Positions 19,467-27,913 of a stretch of DNA of 37,795 nucleotides are shown in pieces. The DNA comes from Spirochaetota bacterium (GTDB lineage Bacteria; Spirochaetota; Spirochaetia; Treponematales; UBA12059): NCBI GenBank assembly GCA_018816345.1, contig JAHIWG010000139.1, positions 79,769 through 117,563 of the forward strand, given 5' to 3'. Both the position numbers and the translations under genes were made by a program. Each line of letters begins with the position of its first letter. Positions within the stretch are counted from its first letter, which is position 1. The notes under the pieces are model-generated. The model worked only from the letters and a program-made list of their open reading frames with translations. It was not told the origin of the DNA and made no database searches.

Positions 19467-19859
19467 TTGCAAGTCGAAATAGCTTCTATCCGTATCATGA
19501 AGCGGGTTCGGAAAGAGCTGCGTGATATCGACCAGCTAGCCGAGAGCTTGAATCGATTCGGCCAACTCCATCCTATCGTCATCACGCGCCGCAAGGTGCT
19601 CATTTCCGGCAGGAGGCGCCTGGAAGCGGCCAAGACCCTCGGCTGGACTAACATCGAGGCTACGGTCCTCGGCCGCAGCGACGCGGCCCAGAGGCTGGAA
19701 CTGGAGCTCGAGGAGAACGTGCAGCGCGTGCCCCTGGGCCGGGACGAGCTGGAAGCCGCAATCGAGCGGCTCGAGCGGCTTAGGCATCCCGGGTTTTTCA
19801 TGCGGATATGGAACGCGATAGTACGATTCGTCCGGAGGGTCTTCGGCGTCGCAGACTAG
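19467..19859 (+). CDS. Small ParB/Srx-domain protein with a cationic C-terminal helix
   Basis: A 130-residue protein with an N-terminal ParB-like nuclease/CTPase-fold domain: QVEIASIRIMKRVRKELRDI, LAESLNRFGQLHPIVI, VLISGRRRLEAAKTLGW, then ELELEENVQR. The ParB box II-like GRRRLEAA and the ENVQR motif are clear. There is no helix-turn-helix or ParB dimerisation domain, so it is not a chromosome-partitioning ParB. The C-terminus (FFMRIWNAIVRFVRRVFGVAD) looks like an amphipathic, positively charged helix that could bind membrane. The start is TTG at 19467, chosen because GGAGG (19456-19460) is six bases upstream and no ATG fits. It lies 54 bases after the PBP gene. Function is unknown. Confidence 0.8.
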   Translation: MQVEIASIRIMKRVRKELRDIDQLAESLNRFGQLHPIVITRRKVLISGRRRLEAAKTLGWTNIEATVLGRSDAAQRLELELEENVQRVPLGRDELEAAIERLERLRHPGFFMRIWNAIVRFVRRVFGVAD

Positions 19860-19900
19860 GTCAGCTCGCTCCGCCGGTTCTCGATATCATGGAGGTTCCG

Positions 19901-20854
19901 ATGAAAAGAATCGCCCTGACGCTAGCTCTGGCGTCGTCGATCGCCGCGTCCGCTTTCGGGCAGCCTAGGCAAGCCGTCATGCGTATATCCCCGTTCACCG
20001 GCTCCGGGGTCGGTTCCAGCGAGGCCTCCATGCTCGAGCGGCTAGTAGCCTCCTATATAGTCGAGCTGAAGTCGTTCAAGGTCATCGACGCCCAGGGCCA
20101 GGAAATGGCCTTGAGCGAAACGGAGGCCGCGCTGAGCCTCGGATCGACGGCTAGCGCCTCGGCTCCCCTGACGGCGGACTATATAGTCGGCGGGGCCATA
20201 GGCAAGATAGGCGATATCTTCGTCCTTACCCTGGACGCTACGAAGGTGTCCAGCGGCGAGAAGATATCGGTCTCCGATACGGCTCACTCCATCAGCGACA
20301 TAGTGCTACGCGCGCGCGGGCTGACCCGTTCGCTGTTCGGGCGTCCCGACCAGCCTGCCGCGGCGGGCCTTTCCTCTCCGGGCATCGCGGCCGCGCCCGA
20401 CGCTGGCGCGACCGCGACTACCCAGGCAGGACAGGCCGCGGCTCCTAGCGATCGAGTAGCCAAGACCGCGATCGCCCTTTCGGATATCGTGGGGACGTGG
20501 CGCGGCGACAAGGGCCTGGAGACGGTCAGGATCTTCCCGAACGCCACGGGCCTGGCCGTCCTGAGCGGCGGGGGCACGCTCAAGCTACGCGTGGCTCTCG
20601 CGGGCGACTCTATAGAGATAGCGCAGGATCAGCCTAACGACATGTACATGTATCGCGCCGCGTCCGTCACCGCGGATATGGCTCGCAGGATAGCGGCCCA
20701 GGCGAGGCCCATGCGATGGATATTCGAGCTCGCCCTCGACGCGCAGACCCTCTACGGTACTAAGGAATCGATATCGATAAGCGGGAGCGGCGCGTCCATG
20801 CGCGTGGATAACGATTACGTGCGCGAGGCCTCCTGGACCAGGATCTCGCGCTGA
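19901..20854 (+). CDS. Exported protein, CsgG/LpoB-like N-terminal region
   Basis: A 317-residue protein with a Sec signal peptide (MKRIALTLALASSIAASAFG). The mature N-terminal part (MRISPFTGSGVGSSEASMLERL, IVELKSFKVIDAQG, TADYIVGGAIGKIGDIFVLTLD) resembles the CsgG/LpoB/FlgO family fold: a short strand, a long helix, then the YIVGGAI strand and a self-description strand. An Ala/Pro-rich linker (residues about 150-180) leads to a C-terminal beta-rich domain (GTWRGDKGLETVRIFPNATG). A role as a PBP activator beside the upstream PBP is tempting but only inference. The start at 19901 is set by GGAGG at 19891-19895; an upstream in-frame start would add a non-signal-like extension. The gene converges on the FtsB-like gene and overlaps it by 40 bases. 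Confidence 0.7.
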   Translation: MKRIALTLALASSIAASAFGQPRQAVMRISPFTGSGVGSSEASMLERLVASYIVELKSFKVIDAQGQEMALSETEAALSLGSTASASAPLTADYIVGGAIGKIGDIFVLTLDATKVSSGEKISVSDTAHSISDIVLRARGLTRSLFGRPDQPAAAGLSSPGIAAAPDAGATATTQAGQAAAPSDRVAKTAIALSDIVGTWRGDKGLETVRIFPNATGLAVLSGGGTLKLRVALAGDSIEIAQDQPNDMYMYRAASVTADMARRIAAQARPMRWIFELALDAQTLYGTKESISISGSGASMRVDNDYVREASWTRISR

Positions 20855-21478: not shown

Positions 21479-23839
21479 ATGCAGAATAAAGCCCCGCAAG
21501 GGAAAGCAGATCCCATTCCTACGCCAGAGCAGGAGCTCGAACGCTACGGCGTTTGGGTCAAGGCGGAACCGCAGGACATCATCGATGACTCATCGATCGA
21601 TCGGGAGACGATAGACGGTTCCGACGCCGTGCTTCTTTCCGAAGAAGAAGAGGTCGTATTGGATTCATTCGATCTTCCCGAGGAAGCTTCGGATACGAAC
21701 GGGTCGTTCGACGATTCCCTGAGCGAGCTGGACGCGGAACAGGATTTCGAGGAACTCGACGCCCTCTCCCCGCTCGACGACCAAGACGCGCTCGCGATGC
21801 CTAGCGCCGACGATGAGAGCTTCGACTTCGAGGCGCTCGAGGCGCTCGAAGACGCCGACGAGCCGGTAGTATCCGAGGAGGCCGAAGCCCCGTCCCTGGA
21901 CCTCGACGATGACGTCGTCGAGGATTCGATCATAGACGTGGAGCTCGACGAGCTCGAGTACGTCGAGCCCGTCATCGCCTCGGAGCCCGCCGCGACGGAG
22001 AAACCGGCCGCGAGCGACGAGGGGTTCGCTACCACCGAGATAAATATCGAGGATTTCGGCTTCTCCGTCGAGGAGAGCTCGCCGGGCATACCGGTCCTTG
22101 ACGAGCTCGATTCCATGGACGATACGGCGAGCTCCGGCGTCATGGAAGCCGTCCCCTCGGGCGTCGGGGGAGAGGATTTCGAATCGTTGGATATAGACCT
22201 CGAATTCGACGATACAATCCCGGCGGCCGAGACGATAGATAGCTCCGACGACTTCGGCTCGCTCTCCGGCGGCTTGGACTCCTCGACCGAATTCGAGACC
22301 GTAGACATCGACTCGATAGGAGTCGACGAGCCTTCCGGGCTCCCCGAGGCCGCCGGCGCGAGCGCTCCCGCTCCGGCCGCTGCGGAAGAATTCTCGATGG
22401 AGGAAGATATCTCCCTCGACTCGTTCATCGACGACGACGACTCGGATTCCTACGGCGTCATACCGGACCTCGAGATCGAGAACGTCTCGATAAGCGACGA
22501 GCCTATTGGCTTCGATGACGTCAAAGCCGTATCCGACGAGCTCGGATCCGTAGCCTCTGGGCCTTCCTCGGACCTATTGCAGAAGATCGCCTTGGAACTC
22601 GCCTCGATAAAGGACGAGCTCGTCAGCCTGCGCGGGCAGCTAAGTAGCCTCAAGGCCTCCGAATCGGCTAAAGCGGAATCGGAAGGACCGGAAGCGGACG
22701 GCGAAATCGCGGAGGAGGCCGTAGGCGGATTCTTCGACGACGAGGACGACGACACCATTGCCCTGACCGGCGACGAGCTCGATAATATCCTCAATACCGC
22801 TGACTTCACCGAAGAGGCCGCCGAGGACGAGTTCCTCGGCGAGCCCGAGAGCCCCGAGCTTGACATAGCCGACGATATAGCTTTGCTTCCAGAGGACGGA
22901 GAATACTCGCTCTCGGAAGAACCCGGCATCGAGACCATCGAGCTGCCTACCGTCGAGCCTACCGACGAGGAAATGGAGGCTATAAGCTCGGCCGAGGCCG
23001 TTACGCCCATCACTAGCCTGCCCGACGATACGAGCTTCTTGGACGAGGCGGATGACGGCGCCGAGCTGGAAGGAATGCCGCTCGATGACGTACCGCTCGT
23101 CGAGCCCGACCCCACAGACCTAGACATAATCATCGACTCCGCCTTCGGCAGCGAGGACGACGACGAGGAACTCCCCGTTATAGAAGCCGCTTCCGACGAG
23201 CCCGAGCCAGAGATCGTCCTGGATATCGACGCCGACGATCAACCTGTCGTCTCCACCGTCGACGCGTTCCCCGAGACGATAGACGAGCTCGAAGACATCC
23301 AGGACCTCGACGACTTCACGGAGCCGGAGACCCTAGGCGGATTAGATCTGCATTCCGAGGAACCCGTAGCCCTTGAGGATTTCCAGGAGATCGAGGAAAT
23401 CGGGGAGATCGAAGAGTTGGCAGAACCGTTGGCCGATGAAGCCAGCGCTCCTACCTCCGAGGTCGAGTACCATCCCGACGAGATAGCGACGAGCCTCGAC
23501 GACTCGCTCTTCGTCGAGCCGATCCCTTCAGAGGGCGCCGAAGAAGCGTCGGAGCTAGAGACTTCGTATCTAGAATCGGAAGAAGACGCGATAGAGCCCG
23601 TCGCCGAGAGCGAGGCCGAGAGCGAGGCCGAACCGGAGCCTTCGGCGCCTAGTCCCGGGATGAGCGCCGTCGCGTCCGACGGAACGGTCCCCGACAAGCT
23701 TCAGCGCGACGTTAAATCCGTGCTCCTGTACCTGGACCAGCTACTAGCCTCGCTTCCCGAGGAGAAGATAGAGGAATTCGCCTCGAGCGAATATTACGAT
23801 ACGTACAAGCGATTATTCGACGATTTGGGGTTGCTCTGA
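21479..23839 (+). CDS. Very acidic, largely disordered protein with a conserved-looking C-terminal helix pair
   Basis: A 786-residue protein without signal peptide or membrane segment. Most of it is Asp/Glu/Ser-rich low-complexity sequence; in a sample around residues 75-165 about two residues in five are Asp or Glu. Two parts look folded: a short coiled coil near residues 360-400 (LLQKIALELASIKDELVSLRGQLSSLK) and the last 50 residues (PDKLQRDVKSVLLYLDQLLASLPEEKIEEF, then YDTYKRLFDDLGLL). It is the first gene of an operon with two DUF115 proteins; the next gene starts in the TGATG overlap. Possible roles are scaffold, chaperone or charge buffer for the downstream products, but none is established. 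I do not recognise a named family. Confidence 0.75.
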   Translation: MQNKAPQGKADPIPTPEQELERYGVWVKAEPQDIIDDSSIDRETIDGSDAVLLSEEEEVVLDSFDLPEEASDTNGSFDDSLSELDAEQDFEELDALSPLDDQDALAMPSADDESFDFEALEALEDADEPVVSEEAEAPSLDLDDDVVEDSIIDVELDELEYVEPVIASEPAATEKPAASDEGFATTEINIEDFGFSVEESSPGIPVLDELDSMDDTASSGVMEAVPSGVGGEDFESLDIDLEFDDTIPAAETIDSSDDFGSLSGGLDSSTEFETVDIDSIGVDEPSGLPEAAGASAPAPAAAEEFSMEEDISLDSFIDDDDSDSYGVIPDLEIENVSISDEPIGFDDVKAVSDELGSVASGPSSDLLQKIALELASIKDELVSLRGQLSSLKASESAKAESEGPEADGEIAEEAVGGFFDDEDDDTIALTGDELDNILNTADFTEEAAEDEFLGEPESPELDIADDIALLPEDGEYSLSEEPGIETIELPTVEPTDEEMEAISSAEAVTPITSLPDDTSFLDEADDGAELEGMPLDDVPLVEPDPTDLDIIIDSAFGSEDDDEELPVIEAASDEPEPEIVLDIDADDQPVVSTVDAFPETIDELEDIQDLDDFTEPETLGGLDLHSEEPVALEDFQEIEEIGEIEELAEPLADEASAPTSEVEYHPDEIATSLDDSLFVEPIPSEGAEEASELETSYLESEEDAIEPVAESEAESEAEPEPSAPSPGMSAVASDGTVPDKLQRDVKSVLLYLDQLLASLPEEKIEEFASSEYYDTYKRLFDDLGLL

Positions 23840-24718
23840 TGGGATTACTTGAAAAGGCCGCGAGCCGCTCGGTCGAGATCGCGGCCAAGCGCGAAGGACT
23901 CTTGGCGATTAGTCAAAAAAAAAGCACCCGTTCCGCCCGTAGCTGAGCGGAGCGTAGGCTTGGCCGATATCGAGGAATCGTTCCTCGGTACCAGGCTGGC
24001 TTTCGAAGCCGTCGGCCCGGGGCGATCGCCCTGGGCCGCGTATTTCAGATCGTTCCCCGATACTGTCCTTCTGGTTTCGCGCTTCGGGGTTCCTAGTGAC
24101 GCGGCCGTCCCTTCCGCGGCGACCTTGATCGCCGGCGCGGAGCGCGGCTTCCTCGAGTATAACTCGGCCGTCGCCTCTGTAGCGGAGCCCGCCGAGGGGC
24201 ATTACCTGGTGTTTCCGCAATCCGCCAGGCTACCCGTCCAGGATGAGGCGCAGTTCCGCAGGTTGGCTTCCGCGATCCCCGTAGCCGTTAACGGCCTGCG
24301 CCCTCCCGCCAGGTACTCCGCCTCATTCCCCCAAGAGATCGTCCATATAGGCATGTCCCGGAATTACTCGTACGCGTCGCTTTTCGTGATCGACGCCGCT
24401 CGCCTCATCGGGATATCCTCCGAGCGCTGCCCTAGCGCCGAGGCCGATTCGGTGCACGACGAGATCTTCGGGGCGTCCTCCGCGATCGTCAATCCGTCCG
24501 GCATGTCGGCGAGCCTACGGCGAGGACTATGCCTGCACGCGTTCTTCAGCCACGCCCGCGGCGACGTCGAGCTGATCGCCGCGCAGGTCCTGAGCACCCT
24601 CGCTCGCCGCTTGAGGACGAGCGAGCCGAAGACGATACTAGTCGGGGCGGTCTCGACGCTTCAGCTATCCGACCCCGGGGCCGAATCCGCCATCGGCTCG
24701 TTCGTCGATGGCCTATGA
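23839..24718 (+). CDS. Unknown protein, reading frame interrupted at an A9 run
   Basis: The stop of the acidic gene and an ATG overlap at 23839 (TGATG). From that ATG the sequence reads MGLLEKAASRSVEIAAKREG then LLAISQKK, a credible amphipathic N-terminus, but the frame closes at a TGA (23944-23946). The body of the protein, from APVPPVAERSVGLADIEESF to the end at 24718, is in the +1 frame. The two meet at nine consecutive A (23915-23923); with eight A they would join in one 292-residue protein. A TTG at 23849 opens the second frame, but it gives an Arg/Ser-rich leader typical of a shadow frame. The body contains VHIGMSRNYSYASLFVIDAARLIG and a Cys-His rich stretch (GLCLHAFFSHARGD). No family recognised. 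It overlaps the next gene by 11 bases. Confidence 0.7.
23915..23923 (+). other. A9 homopolymer at the frame junction
   Basis: Nine A in a row within codons CAA AAA AAA A. Such runs are prone to RNA polymerase slippage, ribosomal frameshifting, replication slippage and sequencing error. Loss of one A, or an equivalent +1 shift, fuses the two frames. Confidence 0.85.
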
Positions 24719-26237
24719 TCCGCCTTCATCGCTAGCCTCGTTCCATTCCCGTTACGCGCCCAGGCGGGAGGCGGAGCGCTACGTCGACGCGGCGCTCTCG
24801 GGCCGTCGACCTTCCGTCATCTTCATCGTAGGCGGAGGGCTTAACTACATAGGGGCGGCGCTAGCCGAGCGCTTCCCGAAGGCGTTGCGCGTATCCCTGC
24901 AACCGTGCTCGGATTTCCTAGGATACGAGGAGGATACGCCCGGCATAAGCTGGCACCCGTCGAGCGCATCAGGCCTCGCGGCCGCCATCGGCGCCGCGCT
25001 ATCGGGCGACAGGATCGGAGGGGGAGTCGCCGTGATCGAATGGCCTCCCGTCGCTTCGCGCTTCCCCGCCGAGACCGAGCGGATCAAGGCGGAGCTCAAG
25101 CGCGCGCTAGAGGCCGCGAGTTCCGATTCCGCGACTTCCTCGTACTGGGCGTACCGCTGGCTACGCAACTCCCTCAGGTTCGCGTCGTCCGTCTCCAGGG
25201 TCGGATCCTTGGTTCCCGGCGCCGCGCCTATCGTGATCGCCTGCGCGGGGCCCAGCCTGGACGACGAGATAAGCGGGCTCCGGCGAATCCGCGCGGGCAT
25301 ATCGCTCTGGGCGCTCGCCTCGGCCGTCCCCGCCCTCCTGAGCCGGGGGCTAGAGCCCGATATCGCCGTCTCGACGGACCCGGGATTCTGGAACGGTTAC
25401 CACGTCACGGCGGCCGTCGCACGAGCCATTCCGATAGCGATGCCTCCCAGCTCCTTCGTTCCCGCGGAGGCGTACTCTGGAACCTCGATTATCGCGCTTA
25501 ATACCGGCATGTCCTTCGAGCGGGCCGCGATAGAGGCCGCCGGAGTCTCGGCTCGCCTTGCCGACGCCGGGGGGAGCGCCGCTGGGACGGCCCTATCGCT
25601 CGCGCTAGGACTGACCACGGGCCCGGTCGCCCTGGCCGGTTACGATCTGGCCGCGAGGGGATTCGACGATCACGTGGCGCCGTACGCGTTCGACGCGCTC
25701 GACGCCGTCTCCTCCTCCAGGGCTTCGCCGTACTGCTCGTCCCGGGCGGCCCGGGTCATGGAGGGCTTTCCTACTGCAGTAGGGTCGTGGCGGACATCAC
25801 GCGCTTTCTCGGCGTACGCGTCGAGCATAGGGGCGCCCCCGGAGGATAGCCATCGAGTATTCCGCCTCGGAGGCTCGCCCATGGATACGCCGCTGCCGAG
25901 AGGCGCCCTCGACGACGTGATCCGGGGCCTAGGCCCGGAGCCGGCCGTGATCGCCGAGGCCAAGACCGGGTTCTCGGGCGGCGCCTCCCGAGGGGCGCTG
26001 GAGGAGATGCTCGCCGGCCTAGGGCGCCGGGCCTTCCTCGAAGCCGGCTCGGCAATCCGCAGGTCGGAGCCGATACCGTTCGAGGCCGCGCTCTATTATA
26101 AGGCGCTCGCCCCCCGCGATTCCGCGCGGCTCATAGCGGACGCGGCGCGCGGCGAGGCCCGCGAGGAGGATCTCCCGCCGGTAGATGAAGCCTCCCGGAT
26201 CGCCGGATCCGAGCTCGCGAGGATGGCGCAATGGTAG
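24708..26237 (+). CDS. DUF115/MptE-like (motility accessory factor type) protein, copy 1
   Basis: A 509-residue cytoplasmic protein. The N-terminal part has a Rossmann-like element (VIFIVGGGLNYIGAALAERF). The central DUF115 domain (6-hydroxymethylpterin pyrophosphokinase MptE-like fold) is marked by PIVIACAGPSLDDEISGLRR, the following LASAVPALLSRGLEPDIAVS and TDPGFWNGYH, and the later GPVALAGYDLAA. In other bacteria members of this family (Maf/PseE-type) attach nonulosonic acids to flagellins or belong to surface glycan pathways, and spirochaetes often carry them with motility genes. The exact reaction here is not known. The ATG at 24708 lies within the upstream gene (11-base overlap) and the end overlaps the next copy by seven bases. 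Confidence 0.8.
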   Translation: MAYDPPSSLASFHSRYAPRREAERYVDAALSGRRPSVIFIVGGGLNYIGAALAERFPKALRVSLQPCSDFLGYEEDTPGISWHPSSASGLAAAIGAALSGDRIGGGVAVIEWPPVASRFPAETERIKAELKRALEAASSDSATSSYWAYRWLRNSLRFASSVSRVGSLVPGAAPIVIACAGPSLDDEISGLRRIRAGISLWALASAVPALLSRGLEPDIAVSTDPGFWNGYHVTAAVARAIPIAMPPSSFVPAEAYSGTSIIALNTGMSFERAAIEAAGVSARLADAGGSAAGTALSLALGLTTGPVALAGYDLAARGFDDHVAPYAFDALDAVSSSRASPYCSSRAARVMEGFPTAVGSWRTSRAFSAYASSIGAPPEDSHRVFRLGGSPMDTPLPRGALDDVIRGLGPEPAVIAEAKTGFSGGASRGALEEMLAGLGRRAFLEAGSAIRRSEPIPFEAALYYKALAPRDSARLIADAARGEAREEDLPPVDEASRIAGSELARMAQW

Positions 26238-27913
26238 ACAATCAGGTATTCGAGCGGAACATGCTCGCCCTAGCCTCGTGGCACGGCCCGCTCTGCGCGG
26301 ATCGCGTCAGGCAGTCCAAGGCCGATACCAGGGTCGGGGTATCGCTAGCGCGGGACGGATCGCCGGTGCCGTATATCGACGCCGGGAACCGGCGGGCCTA
26401 TATGCACTCGCGATTCGATCCAGCGAGGGAGGCGGATCGTTTCACCGGGACCTTCGAGAAGACGGGCTTCTACGTATTCCTCGGCATGGGAGCCGGCTAC
26501 GAGATAGACGCTCTGCTCCAGGCCGGAAGGGTCGTCAAGGGCCTAATCGTCGAATACGGCGCCCCAACGCTACGGGCTGTACTAGAGCGTATAGACCTCA
26601 CGCACGTGCTCGGCGACCGGCGGCTCAGGCTCCTGATAGACCCGAGCGCCGAGGAGATAGACGAGGCGATAGCTTCCAGCTACGTACCCGCCGTAACGGG
26701 CGGCTTCGTCTCTGTGCCGCTACGAGGCCGGATAGACGCCGCCCCGGCGTCTTTCCAAGGAGCCGCTGATTCGATACGCGGAGCGATAGGAGCGATATCG
26801 GACGATTATTCCGTCCAATCGTTCTTCGGGAAGCGCTGGTTCTCCAACATCGTCCGTAATATAGAGCTATCGAACAAGCCTACGCCCCCCGTCGGGCCGA
26901 TACGCGTGGCCTACGTGACTGCCGCGGGCCCTTCGCTCGAGCTGTCGCTGGACGAGATCGCGTCGCGCCCCTCCGGCGCTTTCCTGATCGCTACCGATAC
27001 GAGCCTCAGGGCCCTGCTAGAGCGGGGGATAGAGCCGGACGCCGTCATAAGCATAGACTGCCAGCATATAAGCTACTATCATTTCTCTCTCGGCATGCCC
27101 GAGCGCGTACCGCTCTTCCTCGACCTCGCCTCGCCTCCTACCGTCTCGAGGCTCGCGTCGAAGCCGTATTTCTTCTCGTCGGGCCACCCCCTATCCCGTT
27201 ACGTAGCGTCCAGGTTCAGGGCGTTTCCCGTACTCGACACGTCCGGGGGCAACGTCACGCACGCGGCCGTATCCCTCGCCGACTACCTTGGCGCGTCTCT
27301 GGTAAGGATATTCGGGGCGGATTTCTCGTACCCGTACGGCAAGAGCTATTCTCGGGGAACGTATATCTATCCGTATTTCGACGTTAGGCAATCACGGCTT
27401 CGGCCGTTCGAGTCGCTATTCTCCGAGTTCCTCTATAGGAACCAGTCGATAGAACGCGAGGAAGACGGCGACGGGAGCTTCAGGTACGTCACGAAGCCCC
27501 TCGTCGCCTATAAGGAACGCCTCGAGAGGCTCTCGTCGTCGCTGCATTGCAGGCTCGACAGGGTACGCGGCCACGGAGTCAGGGCCGGGACCGATTCCGG
27601 CGGCCGAGACAGGCGAGTCCTCGAAGGCAGGGTATTCGCCGCTGGGAGGCCGTATCTCAAGCCGAGGGAGTTCCTCGAATCGTACGCGAAGGATATCGGC
27701 TCCTTGCCCGCTCCGTACGGGCAGGCGGCGTCGTACCTCGACGGCCTCGGAGCGCACGAGAAGGACGTATGGATGACGATGCTCCCGTCCGCCGCCGCGT
27801 TCAGGCGGGAAGCGGGCGACGAGCCGCCGGATCCCTGCGAGCTCCTCGCCTTGACTCGCTCATGGTGCGCTACGGTCGTATCGGACGAGCTGGCCAGGTC
27901 GAAGGACTGCTAG
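26231..27913 (+). CDS. DUF115/MptE-like protein, copy 2
   Basis: A 560-residue paralogue of the preceding gene. An N-terminal module is marked by GFYVFLGMGAGYEIDALLQ and VVKGLIVEYGAPTLRAVLER. The DUF115 core has VAYVTAAGPSLELSLDEI, FLIATDTSLRALLERGIEPD, AVISIDCQHISYYH and VRIFGADFSYPYGKSY. This copy keeps the core motifs (AAGPSL, ATDTSLRAL, GADFSYP) more canonically than copy 1, so it is the better candidate for an active enzyme; that is inference. It is the last gene of the operon. Its stop shares the palindrome CTAG with the stop of the convergent minus-strand gene. Confidence 0.82.
   Translation: MVDNQVFERNMLALASWHGPLCADRVRQSKADTRVGVSLARDGSPVPYIDAGNRRAYMHSRFDPAREADRFTGTFEKTGFYVFLGMGAGYEIDALLQAGRVVKGLIVEYGAPTLRAVLERIDLTHVLGDRRLRLLIDPSAEEIDEAIASSYVPAVTGGFVSVPLRGRIDAAPASFQGAADSIRGAIGAISDDYSVQSFFGKRWFSNIVRNIELSNKPTPPVGPIRVAYVTAAGPSLELSLDEIASRPSGAFLIATDTSLRALLERGIEPDAVISIDCQHISYYHFSLGMPERVPLFLDLASPPTVSRLASKPYFFSSGHPLSRYVASRFRAFPVLDTSGGNVTHAAVSLADYLGASLVRIFGADFSYPYGKSYSRGTYIYPYFDVRQSRLRPFESLFSEFLYRNQSIEREEDGDGSFRYVTKPLVAYKERLERLSSSLHCRLDRVRGHGVRAGTDSGGRDRRVLEGRVFAAGRPYLKPREFLESYAKDIGSLPAPYGQAASYLDGLGAHEKDVWMTMLPSAAAFRREAGDEPPDPCELLALTRSWCATVVSDELARSKDC

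Follow-up and report, generated by a model that had tools for sequence, protein, structure and literature searches.

A conserved A run between two frames of a spirochaete gene is a probable site of programmed slippage

The window (G000:C131 in our numbering), the whole stretch of 37,795 nucleotides analysed here, comes from a Spirochaetota bacterium whose 3.8 Mb draft genome consists of 175 contigs, and the features of the window are collected in Table 1. Sequence reading showed that the stop codon of the upstream gene (TGA, 23837-23839) overlaps the start codon of a split gene (ATG, 23839-23841) in a TGATG at 23837-23841. The 0-frame of the split gene encodes MGLLEKAASRSVEIAAKREGLLAISQKKSTRSARS and closes after 35 codons at the stop 23944-23946, and the frame of the protein body runs over 23924-24715 with its stop at 24716-24718. 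An mRNA of the window with A8 or A11 at the tract would join the body to the frame of the start codon, and eight A give a product of 25 + 3 + 264 = 292 amino acids. The first-pass annotation had placed the ATG in the TGATG overlap, closed its ORF at 35 codons, put the rest of the protein in the +1 frame with the two frames joined at the nine A, and expected a 292-residue protein with eight A; the coordinates were re-read and the length recomputed, and all of them were right. The two DUF115 genes that it had named directly downstream were recognized by Pfam, and in the window the first of them shares its opening 11 bases with the end of the body ORF. Across the class, the upstream protein is almost invariant over its last 35 residues (LDQLLASLPEEKIEEFA..., 23732-23836 of the window), and despite this near-invariant C-terminus the protein was recognized by neither Pfam nor NCBIfam.

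Table 1. Coordinates of the split gene, its parts and the neighbouring genes in the window.
Feature	Coordinates	Strand	Basis
TP0183-family gene (context)	19808..20854	+	NCBIfam NF049867, 151 bits against a cut-off of 140
Upstream gene, 786 aa, C-terminus LDQLLASLPEEKIEEFASSEYYDTYKRLFDDLGLL	21479..23839	+	ORF call, alignments
0-frame ORF, N-terminal MGLLEKAA module, predicted 35-aa product of unslipped mRNA	23839..23946	+	Sequence reading, comparison with homologues
Putative slippery A9 tract (nearly always A10 in relatives)	23915..23923	+	Sequence, locus survey
Protein body, 264 aa, in the +1 frame with respect to the ATG	23924..24718	+	ORF translation, homologues, AlphaFold2
GAF-like domain, approximately body residues 17-120	23972..24283	+	Model, VIA structure comparison
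GGDEF-fold domain without the GGDEF motif, residues 124-264	24293..24715	+	VIA structure comparison
DUF115/MptE-like gene	24708..26237	+	Pfam PF01973, 61 bits
Second DUF115/MptE-like gene	26231..27913	+	Pfam PF01973, 90.5 bits

Pfam, NCBIfam and PDB sequence searches with the body gave nothing, and the body was placed by structure comparison only, using an AlphaFold2 model built with 24 aligned sequences (pLDDT 90.6). The VIA comparison matched the N-terminal domain to 3ci6 (Z 8.2, rmsd 5.2, 119 residues aligned), which is borderline for GAF, and to 3rfb (Z 8.0, rmsd 3.4, 118 residues aligned). Residues 124-264 matched 4zmu (Z 11.3, rmsd 3.5, 135 residues aligned), placing this domain in the GGDEF fold, and none of the 24 aligned sequences has the GG(D/E)EF active-site motif at the hairpin. 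From the model, the body looks like a GAF-like domain, borderline in its assignment, followed by a degenerate GGDEF-fold domain. Among the structure matches listed for the N-terminal domain was 4etz (PelD). PelD has the same layout of GAF and degenerate GGDEF domains and binds c-di-GMP.

An initial protein search with the body as query against 59 relatives gave homologues of 28-36% identity, mostly from the same genus, and in every good one ten consecutive A occupied the corresponding position, preceded by MGLLxKA...GLLxxS-QKKK or a similar sequence. The locus survey was anchored on the C-terminal end of the upstream gene, which is near-invariant, so that loci were sampled without bias towards the tract. 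The anchor was scanned across named genomes, the window's own family and the class, 80 further regions were fetched, and tract and frames were read by script. The upstream gene was found in 227 of the 395 genomes of the class. Loci L135, L063, L181, L047, L240 and L083 were removed from the final count by hand because of a wrong start, a different gene beside the anchor, a second break in the frame, or an AT-rich sequence that was in frame; L143 stops short of the tract, and L219 lacks the tract and has its body in frame.

The survey found a run of at least nine A (A9 to A13) at this site in 63 loci, belonging to 35 genera from 18 numbered families and one named record. Its length was A10 in 52 loci, A11 in five, A9 in three, A12 in two and A13 in one. 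In the window's own family, the run is present in each of the 19 loci parsed (17 A10 and two A9), 18 of them out of frame, and the tract is complete in families f43 (6/6), f45 (5/5) and f44 (4/4). It was absent in the class survey from many families, among them the Treponema-type f3 and f5 as well as f30, f35 and f38, where MGLLxKA is fused in frame to the body or the gene is missing. This in-frame fusion in families without the tract indicates that the fusion is a functional form, of which the N-terminal module is part. The first-pass annotation had proposed aligning homologues to see whether the run is conserved, which it is, and had named homologues without an MGLLEKAA-like segment as evidence to the contrary; none were found, since homologues carry the segment with and without the tract. 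One point needs correction: the usual state in relatives is A10 and not A8, the usual requirement among relatives is a -1 relation (one extra A in the mRNA), and the A9 of the window is a variant shorter by one base.

To the background of 12 runs of at least nine A per 489,291 coding-strand bases outside the target in the same loci, we compared the target segment, which contains 71 such runs in 45,240 bases against 1.1 expected. In the phase-1 A10 loci, the three synonymous positions inside the run are always A. The joint probability of an uninterrupted A10 in 19 genera, computed from the protein and local codon use, is about 1e-20 for this set, which was picked for having the tract; beside this value stand f43, f44, f45 and the own family, which have no exceptions to the tract. 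Across loci, the run was found in all three phases. The A run at this site is not due to chance. The other 22 sites with at least nine A in the window's own genome yielded no second convincing frame-split gene.

Two further features of the surveyed loci were recorded. Genome G003 has two copies of the locus, on C27 and C64 (L005 and L011), both with A10 and both near contig ends, which may reflect a duplication or an assembly split. The N-terminal modules (e.g., L123, L126, and L107) often contain GLLx(K/R)A two or three times, also in species without the tract, and this repetition looks like that of a short binding motif.

Of the 63 loci, 49 have the body in the -1 frame and 12 have it in frame; the +1 relation is confined to two, namely the window and genome G022 (L043/L123), both with A9. 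Counted by genus, the relation is -1 in 26 of 35 and in frame in nine, with +1 the majority in none (-1 versus +1, binomial p 3e-8, phylogeny ignored). The two-ORF organisation with a -1 relation is conserved in 26 genera of non-identical homologues, and the tract is retained also where the body is in frame (G300 and G325, both with A10, G012, and others). Since a purely DNA-structural role of the run would be indifferent to frame, the constancy of the frame relation argues against such a role.

These data bear directly on phase variation, in which a change of DNA length at a contingency tract would switch the gene ON or OFF. The homopolymer is near a gene start and upstream of DUF115 genes of the surface or flagellar glycan type, and both A9 and A10 occur within genera g1 and g9, as phase variation would lead one to expect. 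However, the length is exactly A10 in most loci, the out-of-frame relation is nearly always -1 instead of a mixture of three states, and all but one of the own-family loci are out of frame. With lengths nearly fixed and no genus having a +1 majority, phase variation was rejected as the main explanation, and we consider it highly unlikely. An assembly error or a pseudogene is, in our judgement, very improbable. The window belongs to a draft genome in many contigs, in which assembly could have shortened an A10 run to A9, and L083 (Brucepastera parasyntrophica, NZ_CP084606) has, about 5-330 nt past the anchor stop, an A9 that needs -1 and then a second frame break; this locus of a complete genome may be a decaying copy or a real pseudogene. 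Against error or decay as the main explanation, the split recurs in dozens of independent assemblies, and the body ORFs are intact with a confident predicted fold; assembly error is possible only for the A9-versus-A10 difference in the draft genome. Thus, among the three options that the first-pass annotation had listed, programmed slippage or frameshifting is strongly supported, whereas phase variation and assembly error did not stand as main explanations.

The body might also be a separate gene with its own start, and in the window a TTG at 23960, 36 nt past the tract, has a 4-base SD match. Yet only 4 of the 51 out-of-frame loci offer an SD and a start codon that look plausible for the body frame, many of the 51 have no start codon within 150 nt of the tract, and relatives without the tract have MGLLxKA fused in frame. 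With so few plausible starts and with the in-frame fusions, separate initiation was rejected as the main explanation and is scarcely credible. The lack of a plausible start suggests that, in most out-of-frame loci, expression of the body would depend on a shift.

We propose that the conserved A run functions as a site of programmed slippage, most likely for RNA polymerase (probability roughly 0.7); that it serves programmed slippage of one sort or the other, by polymerase or ribosome, appears very likely. The cell very probably relies on slippage of RNA polymerase or the ribosome at the run, by which one gene would yield two products, a short peptide and a long protein that resembles a sensor. 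Unslipped mRNA would give the short MGLLxKA peptide, of 35 amino acids here and roughly 15-80 in relatives. Slipping on the run, the polymerase would add A, turning A10 into A11 in most relatives, and in the window a change from A9 to A8 or A11 would restore the frame. The restored frame would then encode the full protein, composed of the N-terminal module and the body with its GAF-like and GGDEF-fold domains, and translation of the body may feed the overlapping DUF115 gene. Slippage itself, the preference for polymerase over ribosome, and the existence of both products are what we infer from sequence comparison.

The preference for the polymerase comes in part from the run itself, a homopolymer A/T run of at least nine at the frame junction in the window and in all 63 loci. 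A ribosomal heptamer needs only A_AAA_AAG; the run is longer than this, and its surplus A's favour RNA polymerase, as do its presence in all three phases and its retention in genomes where the body is in frame. RNA polymerase slips efficiently at nine A or T, producing mRNAs with one or more extra A (PMC5009743). The window's own genome encodes tRNA-Lys CUU and UUU, and in the review of Atkins et al. the presence of two tRNA-Lys species is tied to polymerase, not ribosome, slippage in T. thermophilus (PMC5009743). In one reporter study, E. coli RNA polymerase did not delete bases on the poly(A) runs that were assayed (PMC6260861), which makes a change from A9 to A8 less likely in the window than a change to A11 with two extra A, unless the true DNA run is A10.

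A possible alternative of rather low probability is of the E. coli dnaX type, in which ribosomes would shift by -1 in a programmed way, or slide, at the run's lysine codons. The shift direction in relatives is -1, as this alternative expects; 37 of the 45 A10/-1 loci have nAA AAA AAA AAn as their zero-frame reading, the A_AAA_AAG heptamer stands in the zero frame in most -1 loci, and the base 3' of the run is G in 33 of them. Sliding of ribosomes on iterated AAA is a known phenomenon (PMC4363877). RNA structure near the tract is mildly enriched (mean z -0.55 downstream and -0.78 upstream, about 0 in controls), and genera g8 and g9 have lineage-specific hairpins downstream of the run. The strong hairpins lie directly 3' of it in L125, L127, L123 and neighbours; a stimulatory hairpin common to all loci was not found, strong ones being confined to a few genera. 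The zero-frame heptamer and the mild structure keep ribosomal shifting among the candidates, but a -1 ribosomal shift does not reach the body in the A9/+1 genomes (the window and G022), ten uninterrupted A's exceed what a heptamer needs, and the two tRNA-Lys species likewise speak against it.

Slippage, which we attribute primarily to RNA polymerase, may reach beyond the split gene. A DUF115 gene overlaps the body or lies within 60 nt downstream of it in 40 of 62 loci, and from this spacing it is possible that the gene is translationally coupled to the body ORF, so that slippage may set its translation. It is a rather doubtful extension of this proposal that the run is an ancient dial for RNA polymerase slippage kept across the spirochaete class, possibly sensitive to nucleotide pools, which would set how much GLLxKA microprotein is made relative to a GAF/degenerate-GGDEF sensor and to the coupled DUF115 glycan-type enzymes.

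To our knowledge, few cases of programmed transcriptional slippage are known in cellular genes (dnaX, Shigella secretion genes, and IS elements). In the open-access literature, we found no slippage report for this split gene or for spirochaetes; the mechanism is already known, and the split gene and its class-wide conservation appear to be new. If the proposal is true, a chromosomal A10 site with the same -1 frame in about 26 genera would be among the more widely conserved examples of slippage, and it would account for the gene being missed or annotated as a pseudogene.

In a survey of A9/T9 runs across bacterial genomes, Baranov et al. saw functional use chiefly in IS elements (PMC1088944). 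In Shigella spa13/mxiE, slippage gives an extended product and affects the adjacent downstream gene, and the first ORF of spa13 has 58 codons (PMC5009743). The short first ORF, the extension by slippage and the downstream-gene effects are similar to what we propose here, but those genes serve type III secretion and are carried on a plasmid by a single pathogen, and no sequence relation is claimed. The dnaX gene of T. thermophilus has a run of nine at which polymerase slippage produces heterogeneous mRNAs (PMC5009743), and it shares with the window both the run of nine and the two tRNA-Lys species. However, in that gene the long product is read in frame and slippage gives a truncated one, so that the gene resembles only the in-frame relatives (f12 g90, f27, f16, and others). 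The closest parallel comes from nine species whose dnaX genes consist of two ORFs and contain ten A in a row, and for which transcriptional realignment was proposed (Antonov et al. 2013, PMC3711429). As in most relatives of the split gene, A10 stands between the two ORFs, the second ORF is in the -1 frame, and the longer product needs a shift; unlike the split gene, dnaX is a clamp-loader gene whose first ORF already encodes a large subunit (gamma), whereas here the first ORF encodes a short peptide only.
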